The notes under the pieces are model-generated. The model searched no databases. It saw only the letters and a program-made list of their open reading frames with translations, and was not told where the DNA came from. Positions 34,101 to 55,509 of a DNA stretch of 64,000 nucleotides are shown piece by piece. A program made the position numbers and the translations under genes. The stretch's first letter is position 1, and every line of letters starts with the position of its first letter. The DNA is from Candidatus Zixiibacteriota bacterium (GTDB taxonomy: Bacteria; Zixibacteria; MSB-5A5; WJJR01): assembly GCA_040752595.1 (NCBI GenBank), contig JBFMGX010000004.1, positions 219,440 through 283,439 of the forward strand, written 5' to 3'.

Positions 34101-36200
34101 GATTTGCGCTGGTACGCACTGGGTCAGATCCTGATCGGGTCCGAACACAATCGTCGGGGGTGCGTTCACAGACACATTGTAGACGATTGTGTCGAGATCG
34201 TAGGCACCGCAGGAGTCGGTCACTTGGGCGATGATCGTGTATCCCCCCGAACCCGACGGTGTGAAACAGATCTGGTTGGTCGCGGTGTCGATCACTGCGC
34301 CGCTGGGTCCCGAGATCAGCGTCTCCACCAGCCACGCCAGACCATTCGGATCAGAGACGGTGTAGGGGGCGCAGATTTGCGCCGGTGTGCACTGGGTCAG
34401 ATACTGATCGGGACCGAACGTAATGGTCGGGGGCGCATTGACGGTTACATCATAGACGATCGTGTCGAGATCATAGGCGCCGCAGGAATCCATGACCTGG
34501 GCGATGATCGTGTAGGAACCCGACGACGATGGCGTGAAGCACACCTGATCCAGCGCCGTGTCGATCACCGCGCCGGCCGGAGCGGAGACGAGCGACTCGA
34601 CCAGCAGTGCCAGGCCGTTGGGGTCGGAGACCGAATACGGCGCACAGATCTGTGTCGGTGTACATTGCGTGAAACTCTGGTCGGGACCAAAGGCAATCGT
34701 CGGCGGCCCGTTGACCGTGATCGTATAGACAATCGTGTCCAGATCAAACGCGTCACACGGGTCGGCCACCTTGGCGATGACCGTGTAGATCCCCGAGCCG
34801 GACGGCGTGAAACACACCTGATTGAGTGCCGTGTCGATGGTCGCGCCGCCGGGACCAGAGACAAGTGACTCCACCAGGCCGGTAAAGCCATCGGGGTCTG
34901 CCACCGTGTACGGCGCACAGACCTGTGTCAACGCGCACTGGGTGACGGCCTGATCAGGACCGAAGGCAATCGTGGGCGGCGAGTCCAAACTGACGTTGTA
35001 AACGATGGTGTCGACATCATAGGCGCCGCACGAATCGGTCACCTTGGCGATGATCGTGTATGTTCCCGGACCCGCCGGCGTGAAGCAGACCTGGTTGGCC
35101 GCCGTGTCGAGGGCGGCACCGGCCGGACCGGACACCAGCGTCTCGATCAGGTGACTGTACCCATCGGGATCCGCCACCGTATACGGCGCGCAGATTGGAC
35201 CGGGCGTGCACTGGGTGATGTTCTGGTCCGGACCGAAGGCAATCGTCGGCGGGCTGTTCACCGTGACATGCAACTGAATCGTGTCGTAGTCCACCCCGCC
35301 GCAGGTGTCGGTCACCCGGACGATGATCGTGTCATACGGGGGACACGGTGTGACGAAACAGATGCGATTGGCCAACGTGTCGATCGTCGCACCGGTCGGA
35401 CCATCGATCAACTGCTCGATGAGCCCTGCCAGCCCATTGGGATCGCTGACTGTATAGTAGATGCAGATCGGCCCGAAGGCGCACTGGAAGATCGATGTGT
35501 CGCTTCCCAGGTCGACGGTGGGGGGGAGGTTGTCGTCGCACGGGGTCTTCGGACGGGCGCCGACGATGCCGCCCATGAAGTCGTCGTAATCGAAGTTCGG
35601 CGACGTGTGATCATCGTCCACGAAGACGAGGATATCGTAATCTCCGGAGAAATCGTTCGCCTCGCCGTCGCCGTCATACCAACGGTAATTGCGGAAGCCG
35701 AGCCCCCGCACGTCGTACATCACAAACCAGATCTGGCTGCCATTGGGCGGATCTGGCAGCGACAGCGCATGCTCGGTGAAGAGATGGGAATCGTCGGGGA
35801 CAGTGTACACAGAATCGACACTCCCCGCTCCGAGATTGACGTCATTGAGCAGGAAGAGACCGAACTGGGTCGACGTCACCGCTTTCCCAGTGGTTCCGTT
35901 CCCCAAGCTGGGGCGCAGGATGGTATTCTGGTCCCGTAAGCCGGGATTGGTCCAGCCGACCCAATTGTTGCCGGACCACGGCGTGTTCTCACCGATGATG
36001 GTGATCGACACGCTGTCCAGAGTTCGAGCCAGCAGCTCCGCCGAAATGGGGGTTCCGATCGGCGTGTCGGTCTGGTCGGTCAGCACGAGGTTCAGCGCCC
36101 GTGCGGGCGTTGCCCCCGAAAGACACAGGATGACCAGCGACGCGAGAACGCCGACGCGGGAGCCGTACCGCAGAGACAGGGCAGACCGGGTCATAGGCAT
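28152..36200 (-). CDS. Giant exported protein: DUF4114-like head, 22 Ig-like repeats, cohesin-like, dockerin, sorting tail
   Basis: 2682 residues from the ATG at 36200 (second ATG 36194); signal peptide with a hydrophobic core LASLVILCLSG ending before ALNLVL. The head (about 35-210) includes YRWYDGDGEANDFSGDYDILVFVDDD, typical of DUF4114-type calcium-rich domains. Then 22 tandem repeats of 83-92 residues follow: most begin PPTIAFGPDQ and contain CAPYTVSDP, SGPTGATIDTA, VCFTPSGSG and DSCGAYDLDTI; repeats 11-14 and 21-22 are of another subtype (PPVCxLPxDTTI). A cohesin-like domain with WEYFTYRL and CPTGLVHLIAIADLDNG is next, then a dockerin (DLNLNGIANEIGD; DVNDDGLVLTIAD) and the tail NYPNPFNAGTVIRF ... 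GIYLYRVQ. Expected on the cell surface, with calcium and disulfides stabilising it. It has its own promoters and terminator. Confidence 0.9.
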   Translation of the reverse strand: MPMTRSALSLRYGSRVGVLASLVILCLSGATPARALNLVLTDQTDTPIGTPISAELLARTLDSVSITIIGENTPWSGNNWVGWTNPGLRDQNTILRPSLGNGTTGKAVTSTQFGLFLLNDVNLGAGSVDSVYTVPDDSHLFTEHALSLPDPPNGSQIWFVMYDVRGLGFRNYRWYDGDGEANDFSGDYDILVFVDDDHTSPNFDYDDFMGGIVGARPKTPCDDNLPPTVDLGSDTSIFQCAFGPICIYYTVSDPNGLAGLIEQLIDGPTGATIDTLANRICFVTPCPPYDTIIVRVTDTCGGVDYDTIQLHVTVNSPPTIAFGPDQNITQCTPGPICAPYTVADPDGYSHLIETLVSGPAGAALDTAANQVCFTPAGPGTYTIIAKVTDSCGAYDVDTIVYNVSLDSPPTIAFGPDQAVTQCALTQVCAPYTVADPDGFTGLVESLVSGPGGATIDTALNQVCFTPSGSGIYTVIAKVADPCDAFDLDTIVYTITVNGPPTIAFGPDQSFTQCTPTQICAPYSVSDPNGLALLVESLVSAPAGAVIDTALDQVCFTPSSSGSYTIIAQVMDSCGAYDLDTIVYDVTVNAPPTITFGPDQYLTQCTPAQICAPYTVSDPNGLAWLVETLISGPSGAVIDTATNQICFTPSGSGGYTIIAQVTDSCGAYDLDTIVYNVSVNAPPTIVFGPDQDLTQCVPAQICASYTVSDPNGPALLVETLVFGPTGATIDTALDQVCFTPAASGVFTIIAKVMDSCGAYDLDTTVYNVTVNAPPTIAFGDDQSLTQCTPEQICAPYTVSDPNGPAQLLETLISGPSGAVIDTALNQVCFTPSGSGTFTITGRVTDSCGAYDLDTIVYDVTVNAPPTIAFGDDQTLTQCTPEPICAPYTVSDPDGLAWLSEMLISGPTGAVIDTALNQVCFTPSGSGSYTIIARVMDSCGVSDLDTIVYNVTLDHPPTIAFGTDQTVAQCTPAQICAPYTVSDPDGLAGLVETLVSGPAGATIDTAANQVCFTPSGSGVYTIIARVADGCSDDLDTIVYTVTQGGPPTIAFGNDFTVFQCTPEQICVPYTVSDPDGLTGLIETLVSGPSGAVIDTANNRVCFTPTTSGTRTIIAKVTDPCNLTDYDTIKVTVLVNRPPFIQLPKDTSLFLCEPDTICFGPIIEFDLDGNGSYDATNIGWINYRHDRICFVPDTSGMYQVIVCLVDSCGAQDCDTMLVTVALNRPPVCQLPNDTTIFQCDPAPICLPAYATDPDGNLTGCQIVSGPGQLVDGQWCYTPTGDEVAVVTIRCTDACGAYCEKTFRVTIDINDPPVCDFPTLTPPVCTPPIYIVPFTSTDPEGDATSCVLYGPGTLNDHVYTYVPTGGETINVIIRCFDDCEDSCEINFSVTFPSKQPPTCNLPRDTTIRLCTPTSVCLPVSATSPNPPVVCSVAVGPGEVAGGNWCFTPADDDTADVTIRCTDICGATCEGSFRVIIVMNDPPTVDLGPDQNTFVCSPEPICVPYTVSDLDGLEKLVEMLVSGPPGATIDTAGNRVCFTPSGAGTNTVIVRVVDTCSAEDYDTLVVNVTMGQPPVIDLGADRAPFLCALEPVCVPYTTTSFNPGATLFESLVSGPPGATIDTVANQICFTPAAAGSYTIIAHLLEMPCNTQDLDTVVVDVTLNGPPTISFGADENVAQCTPSPICAPYTISDPDGLGTLIETLVSGPTGATIDTAGNNVCFTPTGAGTYTIIARVADSCGASDLDTISYTVTVNDPPIIVFGNDQSVTACTGTPICASYTVDDPNGLAGLIETLVSGPTGATIDTAANKVCFTPAGNGTYTIIARVTDPCGLFDLDTIVYTVTMNRAPVIDFGIDQTVSQCNATIICAPYTVSDADGPAGLIESLVSGPAGASIDTANNRVCFTPATSGAYTIIARVTDPCGLFDLDTVVYTVHLNSPPTIAFGNDTTIFLCSSTRLCLPYTVSDPDGFTGLIEALVSGPTGTSIDTAQNKVCFTPPNPGVYTLIAKVTDPCGLVDYDTIVVTTGANDPPVCHLPNDTTISQCVATQVCLPAFATDANGNLVSCQITSGPGLLQNGNWCFTPTGDETVNVTVRCTDACDAYCESSFRVTFIVNEPPVCHLPRDTTILQLCEPQTISLPASATDPDGNLTGCVVTDGAGQIIGGQWVYTPTHDTTVCVTVRCTDDCGAFCEATFCVTVQIIHEDCNCPIVVSVNHGVNIGALNGQTVSVPVHIDKLDENIGGFDLFLCYDQTAISLVTVTKGTAITSWEYFTYRLTAHGDCGVGCPTGLVHLIAIADLDNGTPHPPAEEFKPIGAVATIDFRVTSDRNFIGHCIPIRFCWLDCTDNTISSKSGDTTWLALDIVSLLPGEDCLTSGPGKPTAIPAICFNDGAICIQQPPDDRGDLNLNGIANEIGDAVLYTNFFIYGDQVWNPVWREIQILASDVNDDGLVLTIADLVYLIRIITGDVEPYPPNPKLSPYVGSATIVSESHDGELEIGWQSPVAVGGAHFVIQVPSNGRVGKPVLTTAAADMEIKSYRDGNELRVLVYSTTGASIAAGDHQILSIPITNADGAELASSDLATADGAVLPAAMAKSSALPSSFTVVQNYPNPFNAGTVIRFGMSERGEYDVSVYDITGRRVWRASGEGVGWVNVPWDGRNEDGDALASGIYLYRVQTAQGAQTRKMTLLK

Positions 36201-36464
36201 GAAATTCAACCTCACGTTAGGAATCCGAATATGTGCCCCCACAACACAGCATGTTCATGATCACCGAAGAACTCGCTCCACACATCGCAGGTGGTGTCGA
36301 CAGACACAACTCACCCTCACAGAGGTGCCTTGCCATACAAAACCTCACCCCGTTCCTTGAGGTGGATGGGCGAACGACAAACCCGCCGATGCTTAAACCA
36401 TTACTTCCATCACAACGCGAGGACAGACAACAAGACCTGCTGGCAGAACCTGCCCAGCATAGAT

Positions 36465-40593: not shown

Positions 40594-40619
40594 ATGACCT
40601 TCGTGAATGGGAGGTTATG

Positions 40620-41132
40620 ATGAAACTCGCGACATGCGTCATCGCGGTGGCAATGGTCGTTCTGATGTCGGAGGCCGGTATGGCGGGATGGTATGTTGAT
40701 TCCTTGAAAGACGCGCGCGTCGTCGAGATCCGCGGCGAGACCGCCGACACGCTCCAAGTCGGCAAGGGCAAGCCGGATCGCTACGTGGAGGACAACCTCG
40801 ATTACCTCTTGGCAAACCACGAATGGCTGATCGTCTGCTTCTGTGCCTACTGGTGCGGCGACTGCAACAACTACAAACCCGATTATGTCGGGGCCTCGCA
40901 GCAACCGGAGTACGCCGGGATTCGTTGGGCCTGGGCCGACGTCGATGGCGTGGTCGGCAATGAAGGTCTCCGCAAGGGCTTCGAACTTCCGGGCACGCCG
41001 GTGACGATCCTCTTTCACCAGGGTCAGATCATCAAGGCCCCCGATGGTTCGAAGTCCATCCTCGAAGGCCAGGAGGGGGACAAGACGTACGTCGATCTGA
41101 TCGCGCTTTTGAAGAAATTCTATAGGCCGTAG
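40620..41132 (+). CDS. Exported thioredoxin-like protein
   Basis: 170 residues from the ATG at 40620, 6 nt after GGGAGG (an adjoining ATG at 40617 is too close). Signal peptide: MKLATCVIAVAMVVLM ending before GWYVDSL. The thioredoxin fold has the active-site motif WCGDC in FCAYWCGDCNNY, followed by WADVDGV and the cis-proline segment FELPGTPVTILFHQG. It probably reduces or isomerises disulfides, or forms them, outside the cytoplasm. It stands convergent to the 4746-residue, cysteine-rich protein, for which it would be a plausible folding helper (inference). Single gene between two palindromic repeats. Confidence 0.85.
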   Translation: MKLATCVIAVAMVVLMSEAGMAGWYVDSLKDARVVEIRGETADTLQVGKGKPDRYVEDNLDYLLANHEWLIVCFCAYWCGDCNNYKPDYVGASQQPEYAGIRWAWADVDGVVGNEGLRKGFELPGTPVTILFHQGQIIKAPDGSKSILEGQEGDKTYVDLIALLKKFYRP

Positions 41133-41268: not shown

Positions 41269-44200
41269 TTAGTTGCCGGCGGAGGAGCCACCCACGCGGG
41301 TCGGTGACTTGACCGGTGGTGTGGTGCTCTTTGCCTGATCGGCGCACGGCGCCTTGCCGCTGTCGAACAGGTAGCTCGACAGGTAGTCGGCATCGGCGTC
41401 GTTCACCGTGCCGTCGCAGTTGACGTCAGCCGCTTGCAGGTCGAATATCCCGCGATCCGGCAGCGATGCCGACCGCACCGCGCCCGTCCCGGTCTTGATG
41501 CCGGTGTTGGAGCGGCGCAGGTAATGCATCAGCTTGGCCAGGTCGACCAGGTCAACGACGCCCGAGTGATCCACGTCACCCGGCAGCGCCGCGGCCATCT
41601 CCGGTGCCGGTCCGGGTGTGAAGTCGGCTCCGGCCGCGCCGCCCTGGCAGTCCGCCGGATCGATCTCGATCTTGTACGTGCGGGACGTCGTACAGACCTC
41701 GCCGCACGCATTCGTGCACCGAATCGTGATGTTGACCGTGGTGTTGGCGCTGGCATAGTAGCACCAGTAGTTGCCGCTGATGTACCCTGGCCCGTCCTGG
41801 ACAGTGCAGGTGACGCCGATCGGCGCCGGGCCCGTGCTCCAGGTCGGCAGACAGAGCGTTCCCGCCTGGCAGAGGATATAGGTCCGATTGTCGGGCAGAT
41901 CGCAGGTCGGTGAGGAGACCCAATTGATGATCACCGTCATCGTCCGCTGGGCCGTGGCGCCGCAGCCGTCGGTGGCGCGGATCGTCACGTTGAATGTGGT
42001 GCTGCCGGTCGCCGTGTAGCACCACGAGTTACCGTTCATCTGCCCCGGCCCGCTGATGACCTGGGCGCCGGTGAAGTTCCCCTCGTCGTCGCGGAAGGTG
42101 ATCGGGATGCAGATCTGCTGCGATCCGCACGTCGACACCGTCGTGTCCTCCGGCAGGCGGAAGGACGGCGGGTCGTTCTGGTACGGCTGCACGCGGAAGG
42201 TCTTCTCACAATACGCGTTGCAGCTATCCTCACAGCGGATCGTGACCACGATCTCGTTCTCGTTCGGCGGCGTGTAGCACCAGTTGCCGCCGACGATCGA
42301 GCCCGGGCCGCTGACCACCCGGCACGAGCGGAAGTTGCCGTCGACGTCGGTTCCCGCCACCGGCAGACAGATCTGCGACGGCCACTGGCAGAGGACGATC
42401 GTCGTGTCGCGCGGCCAGACAGTGCACGTCGGCGCCGTGTTCGTCACGAATTGAACCTGGAATGAACCCTCGCAGAAGCTGCCGAGCGCGTCCGTGCAGC
42501 GGATCGTCACGTTGGCCGTACCGGCGCCGGTCGGTGTGTAGCACCAGTTGCCGCCGGAAATCTGGCCTGGTCCGCTCACAACCGCGCACGTGATCGGTGG
42601 GTTCTGGCCACTGGCCTGAACCGGCAGACAGACCTGCGTCAGCGTACACAGGCGGATCAATGTGTCTGAAGGCAGATCGCAGATCGGCGGCGCGCACTGC
42701 GGCACGGCGACGCTGAACTGGGTCTCGCAGATGGCCCCGCAGACGTCGCGGCAACGGATGGTCACCGAGAAGTTCTGTCCGGGCACCGGCGTGTACTGCC
42801 AGCCCCCTGGCACCATCTGGCCGGGTCCGGCCGCCAACTCACAGGTCACGGCGCCTTGTTCCGGATCGGTGGCGGTGATTGGCACGAACATGACGGTCGT
42901 TGTGCACGACGGCTGCGTGAACTCACCCAGTTGACAGATCGGCGCGTCGTTGATGTTGAACGTCACATGGAACGTTTTCTCACAGACGGCGCCGCAGGCG
43001 TCGGTGCATCGGATCGTGACCGTGACCGTCTGGTCTCCGCTCGGCGTGTAGCACCAGTTCCCGTCTATCAACTGCCCGGGACCGGTCATGATCCGGCATC
43101 CGGTCAGGTTGTTGTTGACGTCGGTCGCCGACACCGGCAGGCAGACCTGTGTCGGCGTGCACTGGAAGATGGTCGTATCATGCGGCACGTTGCAGACCGG
43201 CCCGTCATTGATGTCGAAGGTGACATGGAACGTCTTGGTGCAGACGGCGCCGCAGGAGTCCTCACATTGGATGGTGACGTTGGCAACGCCATCTCCCGTC
43301 GGCGTGTAGCACCAGTTGCCGCCGGAGAGCGTCCCCGGACCGCTGGTGATGCTGCACCTCTCGAAGTTGCCGTTCGGATCGGTGCCGGAGACCGGCAGAC
43401 ACACCTGCGCTGCCACGCACTGGAAGATCGTCGTGTCGCGCGGCACATTGCAGCTCGGCGCATCGTTGATCTCGAACGTCGCTTGGAACGTCTTCTCGCA
43501 GACGGCGCCGCAGTCATCCTCACATCGCACGGTTACGCTTACCGTCGTGTCGTGATCGGTGAAGAAACACCACTGACCCTGGCCACCCTCGCCCTTGTCT
43601 TCGCCGAGGATCTGGCAGTAGAGGAGATTGCCGTCCGCGTCCGTGGCGCCGTAGTTCAGGCAGACCTCGGTCGGCTCGCACAGCCGGATCGTGGTGTCGC
43701 GCGGCACCTGACAGATCGGCGCGTCGTTGACGACATACGTCACCGAGAACCGGCCGTCACACGAGTCGCAGAGTGAGGCGCAGCGGACACTCACGTTCAC
43801 TGTCTGTTCGCCGGTCGGCGTGTAGACCCAGAACCCGTTGCGGATCACGCCCGGCCCAGTGAGTATGCGGCAGTGGGCCTCTTCCGAGCCGCCGGAGACC
43901 GGCAGTGAATCGGTCTTCAGCGTGCACAGGAAGATCGTGGTGTCGTTCGGCACGTGGCATTCGGCCGGCTGCGGCTGCGGATAGACGCGCTCGAAGTGGA
44001 TGACGCACGAGTCGCCGCAGTCGTCGTAACAGACAATCGTGACGATGGCCGTGGTGCCGGGGGTCGGACTGACGTACTGCCAGCCGCCCGGGATCAACTC
44101 GCCGGGGCCGTAGAGCGTGCACTCGGTCGCGCCGCCCTCCGGATCGGTCGAGGTGAACGCCACGAAGTCCACCGGAGGTGTGCACACCGGCGGTGTCGTC

Positions 44201-47200
44201 TGCTGGAAGTTGCAGGTCGGCGGCTCGTTGATGTCGAAGTGGACCGTGAAGTCCTCTTCGCACGTCTGTTTGCACTCGTTGGTGCACTGGATCGTCACCA
44301 CGACGGTCGTGTCGTGGTCGGGCGGCGTCCAGCACCAGTATCCGCCACTGAGCACGCCGGGTCCGGAGATGACCTGGCACCAGCTCGGCGTGCCGGCCTC
44401 CAGCGAACCGGAGGAGGTGCCGACCGAGGCCCCACCGGGGCTGCTCGGACGGTGCATAGTCTTGCTATTGTTGCCGCCAATGGGTGAGAGTCCGGGCGTT
44501 GTGATCGGAACGGCGGAGGCGGGCGGAATGGTGCCGACCACGCCCACAGGGATGCACACTTCCACCGGATCGCAGAGCACGATCGTCGTGTCATTGACCG
44601 GCGGGCAGACCGGCGGCTCGCTCACATCGATCACCACGTGGAACGACTTCTCGCAGGTGGCGCCACAGGTGTCCTCGCATCGGATCGTTACCGTCAGCGA
44701 AGTATCCGCCTCAGCGTCGAAGCACCACTCGTTGCCGAACGACTTGCCGGGCGTGCCGGTCACGATCCCGCAGCGGACCGGACCCTGCTCGGGATCGATG
44801 GCTCCGTACGGCAGGCAGATCAGCGTCGGTTCACAGAGGAAGATGACGGTGTCGTTCGGCACCTGACAGATCGGCGGCTGGTTCATCACGAAGGTAACCG
44901 TGAACTTCCCTTCGCACCGCGCCTCGCACGAGTCGATGCAGCCGAACTCGACTTCGACCGTCTCGTTCCCCTTGGGCGTGTAGCACCACAAGCCGTTGTT
45001 GTAGCTGCCGGGGCTTTGACCCAGCAGGCGGCAGTACATCAGGTTCCCGTCCTCGTCGGTCGCGCCCGCGGGCAGACAGACCTCATGCGGCTCGCACATG
45101 AAGATCGTCGTGTCGTTCGGCAGGTGACAGACCGGCGGGTGATTCAAGCGAACGGTGACGTGCATCGTGTCACACGCCTCCGCGCCGCACGAATCGACGA
45201 GACAGACAATGATCGTGTACACGCCGCCGGTGTCGGGCACGAAGCAGAACCGATCGGTGCGGTCGTCGACCCAGCCGATGTTGGTCCGGTCGAAGGCGCC
45301 GTTGTGATCGAGGTCAAACTCCGGAATCGGCCCGAAGCAAATGGTATCCGGTTCGCAGAGCGTGATCGTCTGATCCGGCGGCAGTTGGATGAACGGCTTC
45401 TGGTTGTAACGGAACTTCACCGTGAATGTGCCGCGGCACTCGTTATCGCACTGATCGACACAGGCCACGGTCACCGACACCGAAGCCGGCATCGATGTGG
45501 GCGTGAAGCACCACTTGTCCTCCACGAGTTCGCCGGGCCCTTCAACCAGCCGGCATTCCGCCGTGCCGCAATCGTCCTCGGCCCAGACCGGCAGACAGAT
45601 CGGCACCGTGGGATCGCAGACAAAGATGCTGGTGTCGGGCGGCACGTGGCAGATCGGCGGTGTCGTGTCGTTGAAGGACACGTCTTGGTAGCACGAATCC
45701 GAGAGGTTCTCGCAGTGATCCGCGGCCATGTACACGATCCGATAGATGATCGGGCACTCCTCGATCTGGATCGGATAGGCATTGACGATCGCCCAGAGCG
45801 GCTCCGGATCGCAATTGTCTATTACGATCGGCGTACCGAACGGACCGTCGACTGTCTTGGTCGCGCTGCGCACATCCTGCGCCTTGAGCGCCTTGATCTT
45901 GTTGAGCGCCTCGATGTCGCCGCAGTAGAACGATGTATCCGGCGGGCAGGTGATGACCGGCGGCGTCGTGTCGACGATGCGGATCGTCTGCCAGCAGGTG
46001 TCGGATTTCAGACCGCAGGCGTCAATGGCCAGGAAGCCGATGCGCAGCCACGCCGCGCACGGATACTGGCCGCCCTCCTCGACCCGGCCGAGGACGATCT
46101 GCGGCTGCGGATCGCAGTTGTCTTTGGCCGTCGGCGTGCCGAACGGCCAGTTGTTCGTGACGGTCTGCAGATCCTTCCCGGACGGTATCTCATCGCACTC
46201 GACCAACGTATCGGGCGGACAGGTGATCTGAGGCGGCACGGTGTCCACAATGATCAGGTTCTGGTAGCAGGAATCCGAAATGTTCTGGCAGTGATCGGCT
46301 GCTTGGAACACCAGACGGATGACGGAACGGCACGGGCTCTCTTCGAGCGGATAGACGTTGACCAGAGCGTAGATCGGCTCGGGGTCGCAGTTGTCGGTCA
46401 CGCTGGGCCGGCCGAATCTGTAGTCATACTCGTGCCCGCCCTTGAGCGCGTCACTGCGCACGGACCGCTTCATGGCCAGCAACGACTTGGCATCTCCGCC
46501 GAGTCTCTCATCGCACGAGATGACGGTATCCGGCGGGCAGGTGATCACAGGCGGGGTCGTGTCGACCACCTGGATCGTCTGCCAGCAGGGTTCGGAGGTG
46601 TTGCCGCAGGTGTCGGTTGCCACGTAGGCAATCCGGAGGATGGCCTGGCACGGGAACTCGCCCTCCTGCTGCACGTCCACGATGTGAATCCACGGATCAG
46701 GATCGCAGTTGTCGGTCGCCGTCGGTGTCCCGAAGTAGAATCCGTTGGTTGCCAGACCTTTCAGGCTCTTGGCGTCGGGAACTTCGTCGCATTCAATCAG
46801 CGTATCGGGCGGGCAGACCACGACCGGCTTGGTCGTGTCGACCACCCGGATCGTCTGATAGCACGAATCCGAGACATTGCCGCAGTGATCCGCCGCGAGG
46901 AAGACGAGCCGCACGGCCCGGTCATACGGGCAATCCCCCTGCTCCAGCACGTACATGTTGGCCAGCGCGATCAGCGGTTCTTGGTCGCAGTTGTCGATCG
47001 CCGTGGGCCGGCCGAAGCGGAAGTCGTACTCGTCGCCCTTCAGATTCATCACCGACTCGACGCGTTGCAGGTCGTCGCAATTGACCAGCGTGTCGGGCGG
47101 ACAGGTCAGTATCGGCGGGGTCGTGTCGACAATCGTCACCGCCTGCGAGCAGGTGTCGGAGAAGTTCTCACAGTGATCGGCCGCCAGGTAGACGATCCGC

Positions 47201-50200
47201 ACGACGTAGTGGCAGAGGCTGGTGTCGGTCACATACGCACCGACGATCCCCGCCAACGGCTCCGGATCGCAGTTGTCTGTCACGATCGGTTCCCCAAACG
47301 GGAACTGCAGCAGGGCATTCTCCAGCCCCTTGCCGGGACGGACCGCCTTCACGGCGGCGAGCTTCGTCTCCGGAATCTCGTCGCAGGAGATTACCGTATC
47401 CGGCGGGCAGGTCAGCTCCGGCGGTGTCGAGTCGACGATGATTGCCGTCTGCCAGCAGGTATCGGACCAGTTGCCGCACTTGTCGACCGCCTGATAGCCG
47501 AGGTGGTAGAACACCCGGCAGGGGAGACCACCCGCCTGAACCGAAACCAGCTCGATACGCGGTTCGTTGTCGCAGTTGTCCTCAGCGGTGGGCCAGCCGA
47601 ACGGTGACTGTCCGTCACCCTTCTGCGGCGGCTGCGGATTGTATTCATCGCACGAAATCACCGTATCGGGCGGGCAGGTGATCGCCGGCGGCGTTGTGTC
47701 TACAATGTAGACCGTCTGCCAGCAGGTGTCGGAATGGTTTTCGCAGCGATCGTAGGCCGAGAAGCCGATCCGGATAAACGCCTTGCAGGGGAACTCACCG
47801 CCCTGTTCAACGCCGACCAACTCGACGACCGGGTTGGGATCGCAGTTGTCGACCACAGTCGGCTGGCCGAACGGTGACTCGCCGCCGACCTTCAATTCCG
47901 GCAGTTCGTCGCACTCGATGGTCGTATCCGGCGGGCAGGTGACCACCGGCGGCGTCGTATCGACGACGTGGATCGTCTGCCAGCAGGTGTCGGACACATT
48001 GCGGCACCAATCGGTGGCAATGAACCCAAGCTGGATGATCACGTCGCAGGGATCATTGGTGTTCACGCGCATCTTCACGAAGCAGATGCCCGGATTGGGA
48101 TCGCAGTTGTCGGTGGCCGTCGGCCAGCCGCACGGCGTCGATCCGGGATCGCTGCTCAGGCACGACTTCGATGTCTTGAACGATTCGAGCGTCTTGGTGC
48201 CATCCCATGTGCTGCACTCGATCGTCGTGTCGGGCGGGCAGGTGATCTCCGGCGGCGTCGTGTCCACGACGATGACGCGCTGATAGCAGGTGTCGGAGAA
48301 GTTACGGCAGTGATCGACCGCCAAGTAACCGAAACTGAAGATGATGTAACAGGGATCCTTGTCGTCGACGCCGGCGAAGAACCATCCGGCGAACGGCTCG
48401 GGATCACAGTTGTCCGTGACCGTCGGGGTTCCGAACGGGAAGTTCGGATCGCCGCCCTTGAGGGCCTGATCGGCGGTGCGGCTCTTGAGCGCATCGATGT
48501 CGGCGCGTGGCAGGTCGTCGCATTCGATCACCGTATCCGGCGGACAGACGATCTGCGGCGGAGTCGTATCGACCACGGTCACCGACTGCCAGCAGATTTC
48601 CGAGTTGTTGCCGCAGGTGTCGGTGGCCATGTAGGCAATGCGCAGCGTCAACTGACATGGCGGCTCGCCGCCTTGCTGCACGTCGACGATGTGAATCCAC
48701 GGATCGGGATCGCAGTTGTCGACGGCGGTCGGCCAGCCGAACGGGGAGACCACATCGCCCACGTTGACGACCAGATTCTTGCCCGCGATGTCGTCACACT
48801 CGATCAACGTATCCGGCGGGCAGACGATCCGCGGCGGGGTCGTATCCGTCACGATGATCATCTGGTAGCAGGAATCAGAGATGTTCCCGCAGTGATCCGC
48901 GGCCTGGAAGACCATGCGGAGTGCCAACCGGAATGGGCAGTTGCCCTGCTCGACCGGGTACATGTTGACCAGCGCGACCAACGGCTCGGGATCGCAGTTG
49001 TCATTCGCCCTGGGCCGGCCGAAGCGGAAGTCGTACCCGGGGAAGTCACCGGGCTTCATATCCTTCAACGCCTGAACGTGAATGAGTTCGTCGCACTCCA
49101 CCAGCGTATCCGGCGGGCAGACAATCTGCGGCGCCGTCGTGTCGACGATGATCACCGCCTGCGAGCAGGTGTCGGAGTAGTTCTGGCAGTGGTCGGCCGC
49201 CAGGTAGACGAGGCGAACCACGTAGTGGCAGCGGCTGGTGTCGGTCACATAGGCGCCGACGATTCCGGCCAGCGGCTCCGGATCGCAATTGTCCCTCACG
49301 ATCGGCTCGCCGAACGGGAACTGCACTACGGCGTTCTCCAGCCCCTTGCCAGGGGGGATCGCCTTGAGCGCATCCAACTGACCTTGTGTGAATTCGTCGC
49401 ACTCGATGACGGTGTCCGGCGGACAGGTCAGCTCCGGCGGTGTCGTATCGACCACGAAGATCCGCTGGAAGCACGTGTCGGAGGCGTTTTCGCAGAGATC
49501 GAAGGCCTGGAATCCCAGGCGAATGAAATAGCGGCACGGCGGCTCACCACCGCGCTCCACGGAGACGATCTCGATACGCGGGTCATTGTCGCAGTTGTCC
49601 TCGGCGGTGGGCCAGCCGAACGGCGACGGGCCGCCGCCCTTCTGGATGTTGACGGTCGGCAACTCGTCACATTCCACCAGCGTGTCGGGCGGGCAGGTGA
49701 TCGCGGGCGGTGTCGTATCTACAATGTAGACCGTCTGCCAGCACGGCTCCGACGTGTTGCCGCATGTGTCGGTCGCGACATAGCCGATTCGATAGTAGGC
49801 CTTGCACGGGAACTCGCCGCCCGGCTGCACATCGACGATGTGAATCCACGGATCGGGATCGCAGTTATCGCGTGCGGTCGGCGTCCCGAACGGGAATCCG
49901 GGAACCGGAATCTTGGCGTCAAAGCCGGCCGGGAGATCGTCACACTCGATCGTCGTATCCGGCGGGCAGACGATCAGCGGCGGCGTCGTGTCGGTCACCC
50001 AGACTGTCTGGAAGCAGGAATCCGAAATGTTACCGCAATGATCCTTCGACAGGAAGACCAGACGGTACGCCAGCCGGTAGGGGCAATCCCCTTGTTCAAT
50101 CGGGTAGATGTTCACCAACCCGTACAGCGGCTCCGGATCGCAGTTGTCTTTGACTTGCGGCCGACCGAAGCGATAGTCGTACCCGTCGCCCTTGAACGGG

Positions 50201-53200
50201 TCGGCGCCGAGGCGAACGTTTTTCAACGCCTCGACTTCTTGGAGATCGTCGCACTCGACCAGCGTGTCGGGTGGGCAGGTCAACTGCGGCGGCGTCGTGT
50301 CGACGACGTTGATCACCTGCGTGCAGGTGTCGGCGTTGCCGCAGTGGTCCATCGCTTCCCACATGATCGTCAGGTGATATCCCTGGGGACACTCAATCGT
50401 GGTCGACGAGGCGCGGCCGATCTCTTTCAGGGTCGGCTGGGGATCGCAGTTGTCGGTCACCGTCGGCATCGGGAACACCGTCGGTACCTCGTCGCATTCA
50501 TACAACAGCGGATCCGGGCACACGACCACCGGCGCCGTCCGGTCAACAACTGTGATGACCTGCTGGCACCGGTCGATGGCGTTGCACTCGTCGCTGGCCA
50601 CGTAATTCAGCACGAGACGGTACGCCTGCGGACAGTCGCCGCTCGGCACCGAGTCGCGGCTGACCAAAGTGATATTCGGATCGGGCTGATCATCCGTCGC
50701 CGTCGGCCAGCCGAAATCGCCGATCGAATCGCAGTCAAAGGTCAGATCCGGCGGGCAGGTGATCACCGGCGGATCGTTGACGTTGAACGTCACCGTGAAC
50801 GTGTCCGCGCAGACGGCGCCGCACGAGTCGATGCACAGCTCTTCGATTACGTAGGTGCCCTCCACGATGGGAGGATTGAAGCAGATCCGGATTCCCTCGA
50901 CGGTACTGTTCTTGGTCGGCGCGCTCAGCAGGCGGATCTGGCAGGTGGCCATGTTGCCGTCCGGATCGTACGGCGAATCCGCCGAGAAGCAGACCGTGGT
51001 GTCGGCGTCGCACAGGAAGAGCGTCGTGTCGCGCGGCATATCGCAGACCGGAGGACGGTTCAGCCGGACGTTGACGGTGAACGTCTTCTCGCAGTACTCG
51101 CCGCAATCGTCATAGCAGCGGATGGTGACGACGATCGTCGTGTCATGATCGATGTAGCAACACCACGCGCCTTGACCGCCGGTCTTGCAGCCGTTGGGGT
51201 CCTTGCACGGTTCGCACGAACCGGCGACGATCTCGCAGTAGTAGAAATTCCCGTCGGCGTCGTCAGACGAGAACGGCAGGCAGACCTCCCCCGGTTCACA
51301 CAGGAAGATCGTCGTGTCGTTCGGGACCGTGCAGGTCGGCGGCTCGTTGAGGTTGATCCGCACGCGGAATGTCTTCTCGCACACGGCGCCGCAGGAGTCG
51401 ACGCAGCCGACCGTCACGCTGACATCCTCGTCGCCGGTCGGCGTGTAGCACCACAGGCCGTTGGCCAGCGTGCCGGGGCCGTTGAGCAGGCGGCAGGAGA
51501 CAAGATTGCCGTTCGGATCGGTTCCAAAGACCGGCAGGCAAATCTCCTCCGGCTTGCATTGGAAGATGAGGGTATCGTTCGGGACATGGCACTCGGGCGG
51601 ATCATTCCGGACGATCGTGAACCGGATCGTGTCCCGGCACACCGCACCGCATGAGTCGTAGCAGACAATCGGCACTTCATACGGGCCGGGCGGCAGGTCA
51701 TATCCGCATAACTGATATCCCTGCAGGAAACCGGGCGGAACGCCTTTGGTGTCGAAGGTGCAGTACGCCAGATTGCCGTCCTCATCGGTCGAATAGAACG
51801 GGATGCAAACCGTGTCCGGTCCGCACACGAAGACCGTCGTGTCCCCCGGCATGTGGCAGACCGGCGGGTGGTTGACCTGAATCGTGACCGTCATCGTGTC
51901 GACGCAGATGGCGCCGCAGGAATCGATGCAGGAATCCTGCAGAACATAGACCCCGGGCGGAATCGGCGGGAAGAAGATCCAGGCATTGGACCAGCTCTTT
52001 TCGACCGGCCCCGACAGGAAGCGGTGCTCGCAGTGGGCCAGATTGCCGTCCGGATCATCCGAGAGCCAGTCGAACCGGATCGTCGTGTCGGGATCACAGA
52101 GGAAGAAGCTCGTGTCGTTCGGCATCCCGCAGACCGGCGGCCGGTTGACCATAAAGTGCACGCGGAAGAGGCCGCGGCATTCGGCGCCGCAGGAATCGAC
52201 GCAGAGGACGTTCACCTCGACCGTCTCATCCCCCTTCGGCGTGTAGCACCACTGCCCGTTGACAAACGTGCCGGGACTTGCGACTAGCGAGCATTCGCGC
52301 AGGTTGCCGTTGGCGTCGGTGGCATACACCGGCAGACAAACCTCCTGCGGCTCGCAGAGGAAGATGGTCGTGTCGTTCGGCAGAACGCAGACCGGATCAT
52401 CATTGATCACGAACTTCACCGAGAAGGTGGCAACGCACGAATCCTCGCAGAAGTCGAGGCAACGCACCGTGACCGTCGCCGTCTCATCACCCGTGGGCGT
52501 GTAGCACCAGGTGCTGTCGACGATCCGGCCCGGCCCGCTGATCACCTCGCAGATGGTCGGCGGATTAATGCTGGTCGCTTTAACCGGCAGACAGACTTCG
52601 GCGGGTTGGCACTGGAAGATCGTCGTATCGTTCGGGACGATGCAAAGCGGCGGCTGCTTGACCGGGAAGGTCACCTCAAAGGCGATCTCGCAGGAGTCGC
52701 ATTCGTCGTAGCAGCGGATGATCACATGGATTGTCTCGCCGCCGGTCGGGATGTACTGGTACACGTTCCCGTTGATCGATCCGGGGCCGTACAGGACGCA
52801 GTTGGTCGGTTGGCCCTCGGGATCGGTGGACGTGAACGGCACGACGAAGATCGGCGGCGTGCACTGCGGCGGCGCCGGGGTGCGGAACTCGCAGACCGGC
52901 GGCAGGTTCACCTTGAAGATGACGCGGAAGCGCCTCTCGCAGTAGGCGCCACACTCGTCCACGCAGCGGACCACCACCTGAACCGTGTCATTCCCCGTTG
53001 GCGTGTAGCACCACTGTCCGTTGACCAGCTTCCCGGGGCCGCTGATGAGCTCGCAACCCTCGAGGTTGCCGTCCGGATCCCCGACGGGCCCGAGGGGCAA
53101 ACACACCTCGGTTGGGGAACACATCGCGATCGTCGTGTCGGTGAACAGCGGGACCGGTGGCTGGCACAGGACCGAGGCCCCGCAAATGGTGGCAATGCCG

Positions 53201-55509
53201 ATGTTGCTCCCGGCCTTGGGCGCGAAATCGGACTGCTCGACTGCCAGCACGCGGTTGATCGTGAAGCAGAACTGCACCGGTGTGTTGGCCGGGATGCCGT
53301 TCGGTGTGTCCCACTTGATCCCATACAAGCCGGTGGACCCATCGGCGCCGATGGTGGCGCCGGCCGGGGTGGAGGAGACCAGGTTGCCCGCGTTCAGCTC
53401 CGAGCAGAGCTCAATGATCAGATGGCTGAGCGCCGGGGCTGTGCCATCCCAGATGATCGTGTAACACCACGTGGACGTGCCCGCGCTGGGATCGTACGAC
53501 GCCCCACCGAACGCCATGGTGAAATGACCGCTGAGTTTGACGGAATCACAGTCCGGAGCCCCGCACACCGGCGGCTCGTTGATATTGACCGTGACCGTGA
53601 AGGACGTCTCGCAGTAGGCGCCGCAGGGGTCGGTGCAACGGATCGTGACCCTGACCGTTTCGTCGCCGGACGGCGTATAGCACCACTGACCATTGTCCAC
53701 CTGCCCCGGCCCGGCGACAACCTCGCAGCGCAGCAGATCGCCGTTGGGGTCGGTGCTGATCACCGGCAGGCAGATTTCGGCTGGCGCGCATAGGTAGATC
53801 GCCGTGTCATTGGGCGCCGTGCAAACCGGCGGGTCGTTGATGTCGAAGGTGACCCGGAATGTGTCGGCGCAGGTGAGCCCGCAGGAGTCGACGCATGTCA
53901 GTTCGACGACGTAAGTGCCTTCGAAGATCGGGGCTGTGAAGCACACTTCGTCCGTGCACTTCGCGTCCTTCGGACCGCTCAACAACCGGACACTGCAATG
54001 GGCGAGATTCAAATCGGGATCGTACGGCTTGCTGTAAGGGAAGCACACGGTCGTGTCGCCGTCGCACAACGTGATCGTCGTGTCATTCGGCAGATTGCAG
54101 ACCGGCGGATGGTTCGGACAGATGTAGATGGTATGGTGTCCGACCGGTGCATTCGGCGGGCTGGCGACCGTCGACTGGCCGTCGGAGGCCGTGATGTAGA
54201 AGTCCACTTCGTCGGTCCCACATGGGATCATGGCTGCCGGGATCGTATAGCAGAATGTGTTCCCCGAGCGCGACATGGGGACGTCCGCGTACGATCCGAC
54301 CGCGCCGATGCGATAGAAGAGGCGGACAATCAGGTCCTGCGGCGGCGTGTCGGAATCCGTGACCGTGGCGCAGATCGGCAGCGGGGTCTCCCAACGACGG
54401 CACACTGTGTCGACGTCGATCGTGATCACCGGCGGGAACGGCTCGCAGTAGTTGCCGGTGTCGCACGGCGTGCAGGTGCCGTCGGCATTGTGCCGACAGA
54501 TGATGACGTCGTGGCAGTCGCCGTTGCGGATCGTGTCCGGGCTCGTGTAGCAGATCAGGTAGCGGCTGCAGAGACGGAGCTTGATCTCGTTGTAGATGGA
54601 ATCGAGCTGGGAGCCGGTCGGGGCATGGAAGTAGTCGCCGCCCGAACCATTGGCCAGCCCGCGCAGATACTGGGGATCAAAACTGGTGCCCAGCGCGATG
54701 CTGTAGATCGGGATGCCGGCCCCGAGGGCGAGATTCACGATCAGGGCGGAGTCATCCGCGAATCCGTCATCCAACCCGTCCGGCGGCGCGCCGCAGTTCT
54801 CGGAGTTGTTCTCCATCCCGTCCGAGAGCGCGATCACCGCCTTGCTGCCGAATTCGGGGATGGTCAGATTGGTGCCTGCCCAGATGCCGTCCAGCGCCGC
54901 CGTAAATCCGCCGGCGGAGAGCGCATTGATCTTGTTGATCAACACCGTCGTGTCGCTGGTGAAGACCTGCTCCACCGAGTAGCAACTGGAGAACTTGACG
55001 ATCGCCATGCGATCGTACTGATCCATGTGCCGGACCAGATTCTTGGCGGCATTCTTGGCGGCCGTCAATTTCCCGCCCGAACTCATGCTCCCGGAGACGT
55101 CGATGACAAGGCAGATCGAGGTGATGCAGGAGTCAACCGGTGTCTGCACGACCGAGAACGAGTCGATCTTGTTGGTATCCTGCCAGACACAGATGCTGTC
55201 GTCATCGAGGCCGCCGAGCGGGTAGCCGGTCGGGCCCGTGATCGTCACATACGAGCAGATGTAGGGGAACCCGCTCGGATCGATCTGGGTGATCGTGACG
55301 TCGTTGGCCAGGGGATTGACCGCAACGGATTTGGCGGCATCCTCGGGCACTTTCTCCACCCGGTTTTCGATCATCTCATAGGGGTCATCCTCCGGACCCA
55401 TGATCGGGCCGGCCAACGCCGGCCCGGCCAGCACGGCCAGGATCGTGAGAATGATCAGACATCGGGGCGCGGCGAGCGCCGCCCAACGTGCCAGGTTGAC
55501 GAGGGACAT
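41269..55509 (-). CDS. Giant exported adhesin-like protein: vWA domain, cysteine repeats, HYR-like repeats, dockerin
   Basis: 4746 residues from the ATG at 55509, 8 nt after AGGAGG; an upstream ATG at 55590 lacks such a site and would hide the signal peptide (LIILTILAVLAGPALA). Order: von Willebrand A domain (about 125-320) with an intact MIDAS start DVSGSMSSGG and later ALSDGMENN; a linker Ig-like domain; about 11 cysteine repeats (about 466-1578) of the PPVCxxPNDTTIFLC ... DSCGAxCExTF type, interrupted by one atypical insert; 18 HYR-like repeats (about 1578-3283) of the TPPxITCPPDTxxECD ... DNCDPxP ... HCGNxSDxCxQ type; 15 more cysteine repeats (about 3283-4640); and a dockerin-like module (DVDHSGVVDLVDL; DVNCDGTVNDADA) at about 4640-4725. 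There is no NYPNPF tail. Likely a surface adhesin or network scaffold; metal- and disulfide-stabilised. Frame is intact throughout. Confidence 0.9.
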   Translation of the reverse strand: MSLVNLARWAALAAPRCLIILTILAVLAGPALAGPIMGPEDDPYEMIENRVEKVPEDAAKSVAVNPLANDVTITQIDPSGFPYICSYVTITGPTGYPLGGLDDDSICVWQDTNKIDSFSVVQTPVDSCITSICLVIDVSGSMSSGGKLTAAKNAAKNLVRHMDQYDRMAIVKFSSCYSVEQVFTSDTTVLINKINALSAGGFTAALDGIWAGTNLTIPEFGSKAVIALSDGMENNSENCGAPPDGLDDGFADDSALIVNLALGAGIPIYSIALGTSFDPQYLRGLANGSGGDYFHAPTGSQLDSIYNEIKLRLCSRYLICYTSPDTIRNGDCHDVIICRHNADGTCTPCDTGNYCEPFPPVITIDVDTVCRRWETPLPICATVTDSDTPPQDLIVRLFYRIGAVGSYADVPMSRSGNTFCYTIPAAMIPCGTDEVDFYITASDGQSTVASPPNAPVGHHTIYICPNHPPVCNLPNDTTITLCDGDTTVCFPYSKPYDPDLNLAHCSVRLLSGPKDAKCTDEVCFTAPIFEGTYVVELTCVDSCGLTCADTFRVTFDINDPPVCTAPNDTAIYLCAPAEICLPVISTDPNGDLLRCEVVAGPGQVDNGQWCYTPSGDETVRVTIRCTDPCGAYCETSFTVTVNINEPPVCGAPDCDSVKLSGHFTMAFGGASYDPSAGTSTWCYTIIWDGTAPALSHLIIELCSELNAGNLVSSTPAGATIGADGSTGLYGIKWDTPNGIPANTPVQFCFTINRVLAVEQSDFAPKAGSNIGIATICGASVLCQPPVPLFTDTTIAMCSPTEVCLPLGPVGDPDGNLEGCELISGPGKLVNGQWCYTPTGNDTVQVVVRCVDECGAYCERRFRVIFKVNLPPVCEFRTPAPPQCTPPIFVVPFTSTDPEGQPTNCVLYGPGSINGNVYQYIPTGGETIHVIIRCYDECDSCEIAFEVTFPVKQPPLCIVPNDTTIFQCQPAEVCLPVKATSINPPTICEVISGPGRIVDSTWCYTPTGDETATVTVRCLDFCEDSCVATFSVKFVINDDPVCVLPNDTTIFLCEPQEVCLPVYATDANGNLRECSLVASPGTFVNGQWCYTPKGDETVEVNVLCVDSCGAECRGLFRVHFMVNRPPVCGMPNDTSFFLCDPDTTIRFDWLSDDPDGNLAHCEHRFLSGPVEKSWSNAWIFFPPIPPGVYVLQDSCIDSCGAICVDTMTVTIQVNHPPVCHMPGDTTVFVCGPDTVCIPFYSTDEDGNLAYCTFDTKGVPPGFLQGYQLCGYDLPPGPYEVPIVCYDSCGAVCRDTIRFTIVRNDPPECHVPNDTLIFQCKPEEICLPVFGTDPNGNLVSCRLLNGPGTLANGLWCYTPTGDEDVSVTVGCVDSCGAVCEKTFRVRINLNEPPTCTVPNDTTIFLCEPGEVCLPFSSDDADGNFYYCEIVAGSCEPCKDPNGCKTGGQGAWCCYIDHDTTIVVTIRCYDDCGEYCEKTFTVNVRLNRPPVCDMPRDTTLFLCDADTTVCFSADSPYDPDGNMATCQIRLLSAPTKNSTVEGIRICFNPPIVEGTYVIEELCIDSCGAVCADTFTVTFNVNDPPVITCPPDLTFDCDSIGDFGWPTATDDQPDPNITLVSRDSVPSGDCPQAYRLVLNYVASDECNAIDRCQQVITVVDRTAPVVVCPDPLLYECDEVPTVFPMPTVTDNCDPQPTLKEIGRASSTTIECPQGYHLTIMWEAMDHCGNADTCTQVINVVDTTPPQLTCPPDTLVECDDLQEVEALKNVRLGADPFKGDGYDYRFGRPQVKDNCDPEPLYGLVNIYPIEQGDCPYRLAYRLVFLSKDHCGNISDSCFQTVWVTDTTPPLIVCPPDTTIECDDLPAGFDAKIPVPGFPFGTPTARDNCDPDPWIHIVDVQPGGEFPCKAYYRIGYVATDTCGNTSEPCWQTVYIVDTTPPAITCPPDTLVECDELPTVNIQKGGGPSPFGWPTAEDNCDNDPRIEIVSVERGGEPPCRYFIRLGFQAFDLCENASDTCFQRIFVVDTTPPELTCPPDTVIECDEFTQGQLDALKAIPPGKGLENAVVQFPFGEPIVRDNCDPEPLAGIVGAYVTDTSRCHYVVRLVYLAADHCQNYSDTCSQAVIIVDTTAPQIVCPPDTLVECDELIHVQALKDMKPGDFPGYDFRFGRPRANDNCDPEPLVALVNMYPVEQGNCPFRLALRMVFQAADHCGNISDSCYQMIIVTDTTPPRIVCPPDTLIECDDIAGKNLVVNVGDVVSPFGWPTAVDNCDPDPWIHIVDVQQGGEPPCQLTLRIAYMATDTCGNNSEICWQSVTVVDTTPPQIVCPPDTVIECDDLPRADIDALKSRTADQALKGGDPNFPFGTPTVTDNCDPEPFAGWFFAGVDDKDPCYIIFSFGYLAVDHCRNFSDTCYQRVIVVDTTPPEITCPPDTTIECSTWDGTKTLESFKTSKSCLSSDPGSTPCGWPTATDNCDPNPGICFVKMRVNTNDPCDVIIQLGFIATDWCRNVSDTCWQTIHVVDTTPPVVTCPPDTTIECDELPELKVGGESPFGQPTVVDNCDPNPVVELVGVEQGGEFPCKAFIRIGFSAYDRCENHSDTCWQTVYIVDTTPPAITCPPDTVISCDEYNPQPPQKGDGQSPFGWPTAEDNCDNEPRIELVSVQAGGLPCRVFYHLGYQAVDKCGNWSDTCWQTAIIVDSTPPELTCPPDTVISCDEIPETKLAAVKAVRPGKGLENALLQFPFGEPIVTDNCDPEPLAGIVGAYVTDTSLCHYVVRIVYLAADHCENFSDTCSQAVTIVDTTPPILTCPPDTLVNCDDLQRVESVMNLKGDEYDFRFGRPTAIDNCDQEPLIALANMYVLEQGDCPYDRAVRLVFLAADHCGNVSDSCYQTIRVVDTTKPVVVCPPDTLIECDEVPDAKSLKGLATNGFYFGTPTATDNCDPDPWIHIVDVQQEGEFPCQAILRIAYVATDTCGNTSEPCWQTIQVVDTTPPVITCPPDTVISCDERLGGDAKSLLAMKRSVRSDALKGGHEYDYRFGRPSVTDNCDPEPIYALVNVYPLEESPCRSVIRLVFQAADHCQNISDSCYQNLIIVDTVPPQITCPPDTLVECDEIPSGKDLQTVTNNWPFGTPTAKDNCDPQPQIVLGRVEEGGQYPCAAWLRIGFLAIDACGLKSDTCWQTIRIVDTTPPVITCPPDTSFYCGDIEALNKIKALKAQDVRSATKTVDGPFGTPIVIDNCDPEPLWAIVNAYPIQIEECPIIYRIVYMAADHCENLSDSCYQDVSFNDTTPPICHVPPDTSIFVCDPTVPICLPVWAEDDCGTAECRLVEGPGELVEDKWCFTPTSMPASVSVTVACVDQCDNECRGTFTVKFRYNQKPFIQLPPDQTITLCEPDTICFGPIPEFDLDHNGAFDRTNIGWVDDRTDRFCFVPDTGGVYTIIVCLVDSCGAEACDTMHVTVRLNHPPVCHLPNDTTIFMCEPHEVCLPAGATDEDGNLMYCRLLGQSPGSYNNGLWCYTPKGNETVEVEFGCIDSCEARCEGKFTVTFVMNQPPICQVPNDTVIFLCEPTLICLPYGAIDPEQGPVRCGIVTGTPGKSFGNEWCFDAEADTSLTVTIRCEDTCGATCEKSFHVVIDVSEPPVCPPVNDTTIVLCDPVEVCIPVGVVGTIPPASAVPITTPGLSPIGGNNSKTMHRPSSPGGASVGTSSGSLEAGTPSWCQVISGPGVLSGGYWCWTPPDHDTTVVVTIQCTNECKQTCEEDFTVHFDINEPPTCNFQQTTPPVCTPPVDFVAFTSTDPEGGATECTLYGPGELIPGGWQYVSPTPGTTAIVTIVCYDDCGDSCVIHFERVYPQPQPAECHVPNDTTIFLCTLKTDSLPVSGGSEEAHCRILTGPGVIRNGFWVYTPTGEQTVNVSVRCASLCDSCDGRFSVTYVVNDAPICQVPRDTTIRLCEPTEVCLNYGATDADGNLLYCQILGEDKGEGGQGQWCFFTDHDTTVSVTVRCEDDCGAVCEKTFQATFEINDAPSCNVPRDTTIFQCVAAQVCLPVSGTDPNGNFERCSITSGPGTLSGGNWCYTPTGDGVANVTIQCEDSCGAVCTKTFHVTFDINDGPVCNVPHDTTIFQCTPTQVCLPVSATDVNNNLTGCRIMTGPGQLIDGNWCYTPSGDQTVTVTIRCTDACGAVCEKTFHVTFNINDAPICQLGEFTQPSCTTTVMFVPITATDPEQGAVTCELAAGPGQMVPGGWQYTPVPGQNFSVTIRCRDVCGAICETQFSVAVPQCAPPICDLPSDTLIRLCTLTQVCLPVQASGQNPPITCAVVSGPGQISGGNWCYTPTGAGTANVTIRCTDALGSFCEGSFQVQFVTNTAPTCTVWPRDTTIVLCQWPSQICLPVAGTDVDGNFRSCRVVSGPGSIVGGNWCYTPPNENEIVVTIRCEDSCNAYCEKTFRVQPYQNDPPSFRLPEDTTVSTCGSQQICIPITFRDDEGNFTGAQVISGPGQMNGNSWCYTATGSTTFNVTIRATDGCGATAQRTMTVIINWVSSPTCDLPDNRTYILCQAGTLCLPTWSTGPAPIGVTCTVQDGPGYISGNYWCYYASANTTVNITIRCTNACGEVCTTSRTYKIEIDPADCQGGAAGADFTPGPAPEMAAALPGDVDHSGVVDLVDLAKLMHYLRRSNTGIKTGTGAVRSASLPDRGIFDLQAADVNCDGTVNDADADYLSSYLFDSGKAPCADQAKSTTPPVKSPTRVGGSSAGN
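46560..47697 (-). repeat. Higher-order duplicated block (HYR repeats 12-15)
   Basis: Four consecutive HYR-like modules in the order C-D-A-B (by internal signatures SPFGWPTAEDNC, AGIVGAYVTDTS, YDFRFGRP, DPWIHIVDVQ). The same order and length recur at 48575-49715. Confidence 0.7.
48575..49715 (-). repeat. Higher-order duplicated block (HYR repeats 5-8)
   Basis: Partner of 46560-47697. The D modules are especially alike at the DNA level (around 47221-47335 and 49234-49350). Three modules of other types (9-11) separate the two blocks. Confidence 0.7.

Follow-up and report, generated by a model that had tools for sequence, protein, structure and literature searches.

The locus and the giant protein BIG

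The window, by which we mean the whole 64,000-nucleotide stretch of DNA analysed here, derives from a Candidatus Zixiibacteriota MAG and carries the gene of a giant protein, hereafter BIG. An unbroken frame of 14.2 kb and 4746 residues had been described in an earlier, sequence-only reading that gave no strand. Our analysis places this frame on the minus strand and confirms that it is intact: it opens with an ATG at 55509 and closes with a stop at 41269, with 4746 codons, no stops within and a GGAGG ribosome-binding motif 8 nt upstream of the ATG. The mature chain has a mass of ~508 kDa, a pI of 4.2 and 335 cysteines, in agreement with the several hundred disulfide-capable residues of the Cys-rich protein envisaged in that reading. 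The longest exact DNA repeat within the gene measures only 35 bp, which makes collapse or misjoining of the array during assembly unlikely. Nor is the array a low-complexity artefact, the mean pairwise identity being 39% among the repeats of type A and 47% among those of type B. BIG was segmented by manual parsing, followed by HMMs built from that parsing. The features of the locus are as follows (window coordinates).

41269..55509, minus: coding sequence of the putative fibre protein BIG, 4746 aa (open frame, RBS, domain content)
55408..55509, minus: BIG signal peptide, residues 1-34 (...LILTILAVLAGPALA-G; by inspection)
54505..55119, minus: BIG vWA domain, residues 131-335, with complete MIDAS (PF00092, PF13519)
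54115..54504, minus: Cys-rich module after the vWA domain, residues 336-465, conserved with the head family
50782..54114, minus: first A-repeat block of BIG, residues 466-1576, 11 Big_9-like repeats (HMMs)
53161..53580, minus: odd insert domain of 140 aa inside the first A block, residues 644-783, 7 Cys
45664..50781, minus: B-repeat block of BIG, residues 1577-3282, 18 HYR repeats (HMMs, Pfam)
41653..45663, minus: second A-repeat block of BIG, residues 3283-4619, 15 repeats (HMMs)
41368..41583, minus: C-terminal type I dockerin of BIG, residues 4643-4714 (PF00404)
40617..41132, plus: exported thioredoxin-like protein with a CGDC motif (PF00085, 30.9 bits; sequence)
28152..36242, minus: neighbour NB, 2696 aa, with 22 A-type repeats, a cohesin, a divergent dockerin and a T9SS/FlgD-type tail; candidate anchor
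29037..29600, minus: cohesin module of NB (PF00963, 28.1 bits)
28746..29018, minus: divergent dockerin-like module directly after the NB cohesin (profile)
13875..16988, minus: cohesin protein of 1037 aa with a T9SS/FlgD-type tail; candidate anchor (cohesin profile, FlgD_ig)

The vWA domain scores above the Pfam cut-offs (PF00092, 47.4 bits against a cut-off of 23.8; PF13519, 45.9 bits) and its MIDAS is complete, consisting of DVSGS (DxSxS) at 137-141, T203 and D230. It is TIGR03436-like, with 48.1 bits against a cut-off of 81. At the opposite end, the dockerin passes PF00404 (34.1 against 22.9 bits) and contains two complete calcium-loop motifs (DVDHSGVVDLVD; DVNCDGTVNDAD), forming a duplicated F-hand calcium loop. 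Both termini thus conform to the sequence-only reading, which had proposed a metal-binding vWA head and a dockerin as the chain end. That reading had overlooked two modules, the Cys-rich module that follows the vWA domain and the insert at 644-783. Pfam searches assigned no family to either of these or to the region N-terminal to the vWA domain.

A dockerin profile of three relatives matches solved PDB dockerins at 1.8e-9, and the ability of the BIG dockerin to bind calcium is supported at the level of its sequence. The genome encodes at least six further proteins with the same kind of terminal dockerin, one of them subtilisin-like by inspection. This suggests a general tag and not one made for the BIG fibre. 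Members of this dockerin class (L046, L048-L052 and window 41368-41583) have one cysteine in or near loop 2 and another close to the end, which often reads ...VFRGGxxPxxC; a disulfide clasp around these dockerins is possible. BIG has no T9SS sorting domain of the Por_Secre_tail, CHU_C or FlgD_ig type at its C-terminus and no cohesin. No RTX-type Pfam match was obtained in BIG at E≤0.1, and the chain ends in the dockerin, not in a type I secretion end.

Predicted repeat folds and paired cysteine loss

Our own HMMs gave a significant domain score for each of 26 A repeats (11 + 15) and 18 B repeats, exactly the numbers expected from the sequence-only reading of about 26 repeats of one type flanking 18 HYR-like ones. 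The A repeats mostly contain eight cysteines (range 4-12), and 16 of the 18 B repeats contain six. The B block has partly expanded via duplication of a multi-repeat segment: repeats 5-6 and 12-13 (offset 7) are 67% and 81% alike. Among eight B repeats tested, HYR was found in six and HYR_4C in two, the best single repeat scoring above the HYR cut-off (27.2 against 21.7 bits); a stray alignment row of one residue was left out. In the whole protein, the A repeats match Big_9 (E 8e-29; 100.8 against 23.6 bits); taken singly, only 5 of 16 do so.

We utilised AlphaFold2 to model tandems of both repeat types, with alignments consisting of BIG's own repeats (plus the neighbour's repeats for A). The models are beta-sandwich tandems with a mean pLDDT of 97.8 for A-A and 90.1 for B-B, all beta barring one short helical turn in B. 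Foldseek places the A-A model nearest to the RTX-adhesin extender 6xi1, SraP, SiiE and cadherins, and the B-B model nearest to SraP and cadherins, with PDB E values of 4e-8 for 6xi1 and of 2e-7 and 1.5e-5 for SraP; 287 PDB matches to the A-A model have an E below 0.001. A PDB sequence search with the B-repeat profile returned chance matches only. The confident beta-sandwiches agree with the Ig/HYR folds that had been proposed, a proposal that repeat models without such folds would have contradicted.

Across 155 A repeats from BIG and related proteins, Cys3 and Cys5 are jointly present or absent (phi 0.98), Cys2 and Cys7 are rarely missing, and Cys1, Cys4, Cys6 and Cys8 vary as a set, in figures that are inflated by repeats related by descent. 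As the cysteines of the A repeats are lost in pairs, disulfides can be deduced. With the pairing 1-4, 2-7, 3-5 and 6-8, 25 repeats within BIG alone show a single discordance; when all 155 are taken together, three pairings of Cys1/4/6/8 score 52 to 54 discordances and are indistinguishable. Paired loss is the pattern that disulfides formed outside the cytoplasm would be expected to leave, and the A repeats of BIG offer a clean natural case for deducing disulfide topology via paired cysteine loss.

The thioredoxin-like gene at 40617-41132 lies tail-to-tail with BIG, and its CGDC protein is possibly involved in disulfide handling. A search for VKOR as a disulfide oxidase found none. A homologue of the thioredoxin-like protein is encoded near the cohesin cluster of the relative G004 (C15:64476).

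Cohesin proteins and relatives of BIG

Two proteins encoded in the window contain cohesins. In the 1037-aa protein, the cohesin profile matches at 14793-15314 with an E of 8.8e-52, and the tail is recognised by FlgD_ig (47.4 bits) and Por_Secre_tail. In NB, the cohesin is followed by the dockerin-like module, which scores under the Pfam cut-off and whose profile matches dockerins at 0.003. When the cohesin profile (nine members) was searched against the PDB, all 16 matches were cellulosomal cohesin or scaffoldin proteins (best 3.7e-4). PF00963 matches eight of the nine members at E≤1 (best 8.7e-7), and the family alignment is good only over its N-terminal third. Additional cohesin proteins, C3 and C13, are encoded elsewhere in the genome, as is SprA, the T9SS translocon (E 2.4e-37). 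The cohesin and the divergent dockerin-like module adjoin before the T9SS tail in nine of nine aligned proteins; proteins with the two side by side include NB (window 28152-36242), L016, L018, L036, L038, L040 and L041.

Over 58 genomes, dockerins are present in all 50 with the cohesin family and absent from five of the eight without it (Fisher 1.2e-5, ignoring kinship of the genomes). G045 and G053, which belong to one family, have 30 and 18 dockerins, respectively, and no detectable cohesin. A frame of 24,197 aa with a cohesin match in the relative G040 was rejected as an artefact of sequence read as N.

The cohesin genes of the window are part of a surface-protein locus with the order RtcB, 1037-aa type, PALP, ..., GreA-like (named by inspection) and giant repeat protein. 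Three relatives, G004, G005 and G007, keep this order, and G001 keeps its RtcB end. The conserved locus corresponds to window 12155-36242 and to L077-L085 and also includes an NTP transferase; the type of giant protein differs by genome.

Homology over the full vWA and Cys-rich head, together with the head tree, places BIG in a Zixibacteria vWA-head family. Its entries include the C3 paralogue, JAKAKI010000038, JACRMA010000085, JACQFV010000057, CAUJJY010000386 and WJJR01000113; their heads are 48-62% identical to that of BIG (62% for C3), and they have Ig-like repeats in common with it. At E≤1e-30 the family occurs in 20 of 133 genomes of the phylum. Among named genomes, all those found to have the head were Candidatus Zixiibacteriota MAGs apart from one unclassified MAG, in a search with short peptide patterns by which absence elsewhere is not proven. 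As far as searched, the family appears to be phylum-restricted.

Sixteen family members have a complete C-terminus, and 13 of these carry a T9SS-type sorting tail: nine end in cohesin, dockerin and T9SS/FlgD-type tail, and four in the tail alone. BIG, with its 18 HYR repeats, differs from this majority by its bare dockerin, which it shares with G004 and G005-C61. The G004 protein (L042), cut at its N-terminus by the contig end, reads vWA-2A-5HYR-23A-dockerin, which is the domain order of BIG. The C3 paralogue of the same genome is similar, with vWA-A-(HYR-like)-A-cohesin-dockerin-T9SS tail; its two HYR-like repeats were seen by eye and are missed by the B model. The search of related bins suggested in the sequence-only reading therefore succeeded in one relative, G004, so that the layout, for which that reading knew of no named family, has a match. 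In G002, of the same genus, 23 A repeats are combined with a BIG-like terminal dockerin, a different head and no T9SS tail.

The head tree does not track the type of C-terminal end, which indicates that modules have been exchanged. We had considered the tail-less, dockerin-ended vWA proteins as one old orthologous group; this was rejected, as the G005 member groups with cohesin-ended heads, so that heads and ends appear shuffled.

Known systems and models of BIG function

A cohesin-dockerin scheme has been described in another FCB phylum. In MAGs of Candidatus Stygibacter (Cloacimonadota), a T9SS-CTD cohesin protein and exported proteins with C-terminal dockerins form a cellulosome-like system, likewise inferred from the genomes (PMC8542988). 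The clients there are mainly enzymes and one scaffoldin has many cohesins and CBMs (PMC8542988), whereas here we find a giant non-catalytic putative fibre and candidate anchors with few cohesins. In size, Ig-like extenders and a vWA domain as putative ligand-binding domain, BIG resembles RTX adhesins such as AhLap of Aeromonas hydrophila, which has 5047 aa and 42 domains with the vWA near its tip (PMC12077191). However, the polarity of AhLap is opposite, with an N-terminal retention module, RTX repeats and a type I secretion signal (PMC12077191), and the Cys-rich repeats and dockerin of BIG set the two apart. HycP of Clostridium cellulolyticum is also a large exported bacterial protein with a long HYR array, consisting of 23 HYR modules plus CBM3, for which no adhesion phenotype was found; unlike BIG, it has neither vWA nor dockerin (PMC3723904). 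Genomes of ANME archaea encode surface proteins with non-cellulosomal cohesin/dockerin sets alongside HYR and vWA domains. As far as the descriptions of these surface proteins go, they belong to an archaeal envelope and do not include the single-chain architecture of BIG (PMC5244752, PMC9012536).

A literature search returned no paper joining Zixibacteria with dockerins or type IX secretion. The component parts of BIG are known; their combination is new. Without several cohesins, BIG is not a cellulosomal scaffoldin, and neither is it an RTX adhesin: it would act in the manner of an adhesin and is composed like a dockerin client.

On balance, BIG is probably an exported adhesive fibre that is held through its dockerin by cohesin proteins with a T9SS anchor. 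From the evidence above we infer cohesin-dockerin pairing, the crossing of the outer membrane, surface position and adhesion. The N-terminal vWA head with its MIDAS metal site would be the tip that binds the ligand, the stalk would consist of about 45 Ig-like repeats of A and HYR type stapled by disulfides, and the calcium-binding C-terminal dockerin would be the proximal end. At ~4 nm per domain, the stalk would measure ~150-200 nm if extended. The dockerin would plug into cohesins of proteins that are T9SS-sorted to the cell surface, with NB and the 1037-aa protein of this window and the C3 and C13 proteins as candidate sockets. As BIG has no T9SS tail and proteins encoded nearby have cohesins and such tails, these being the sockets is the simplest reading.

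The anatomy of BIG is that of an end-attached adhesin, with a metal-site head, a long stalk and an attachment module at the far end. In line with an exported fibre, the MIDAS is complete, both repeat types are nearest to adhesin extender or cadherin tandems, and the cysteines of the A repeats are lost in pairs. Docking is supported by the co-occurrence of cohesins and dockerins across relatives, by the cohesins with T9SS-type tails in the window and elsewhere together with SprA, and by the tail-less dockerin end of three head-family members and of the G002 A-repeat protein. The sequence-only proposal of a fibre or scaffold attached by its dockerin end thus stands as regards the extended fibre architecture and plausible partners, namely cohesin proteins with tails for surface sorting, of which the window encodes two; the layout is not unique, and the scheme has an FCB precedent (PMC8542988).

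Several observations speak against this model: no T9SS tail is present to carry the 508-kDa BIG over the outer membrane, VKOR was not found, G045 and G053 have their dockerins without detectable cohesin, and at least six other proteins share the terminal dockerin. The last two, together with the cysteines in or near the second loop and at the C-terminus, would fit a terminal dockerin that, instead of being a cohesin ligand, serves in Zixibacteria as a general C-terminal tag for export or retention, or as a disulfide-closed stabilising cap, BIG being released or held by some surface receptor. We regard this as unlikely in view of the overall cohesin/dockerin co-occurrence, the complete calcium loops of the BIG dockerin and the published precedent from Cloacimonadota (PMC8542988). 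It seems rather improbable that BIG is a matrix or scaffold protein and not a ligand-binding adhesin, linking up cohesin-bearing proteins on the surface of a single cell or of several, its vWA binding a second copy of BIG or a partner repeat protein. Hyalin, a protein of the extracellular matrix, does contain HYR repeats (PMC3723904), and same-head paralogues carry both cohesin and dockerin, which makes mixed assemblies possible; however, BIG has one dockerin and no cohesin, which argues for end-attachment and not for branching. We give very little credence to a periplasmic location or to a decaying or non-expressed giant gene. BIG has no recognised outer-membrane export signal, but its frame is intact over 4746 codons, the 8-Cys and 6-Cys repeats are maintained, and tail-less relatives exist in other genera of the family.

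Extending the docked adhesive fibre to the phylum, we tentatively propose, with some doubt, that Zixibacteria may build an adhesive surface resembling a cellulosome, where T9SS-sorted cohesin proteins hold giant fibres that are non-catalytic, disulfide-stapled and tail-less. Heads and C-terminal ends would be exchanged between paralogues, so that one head may sit on a self-anchoring or a docked chain. Cohesin-dockerin pairs outside cellulosomes are widespread, and their use is mostly unknown. This genome offers a small set: besides the giant putative fibre with its terminal dockerin, it encodes further proteins ending in dockerins and a few T9SS-tailed cohesin proteins, two of whose genes neighbour that of BIG. 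If the proposal is true, the enzyme scheme of Cloacimonadota extends to adhesion in an uncultured FCB phylum.

Another shuffled combination was observed at L017:3305-8197 on the minus strand, where a protein of 1631 aa has a mid-chain vWA, an HYR half-domain, six A repeats, a dockerin and a T9SS-type tail.
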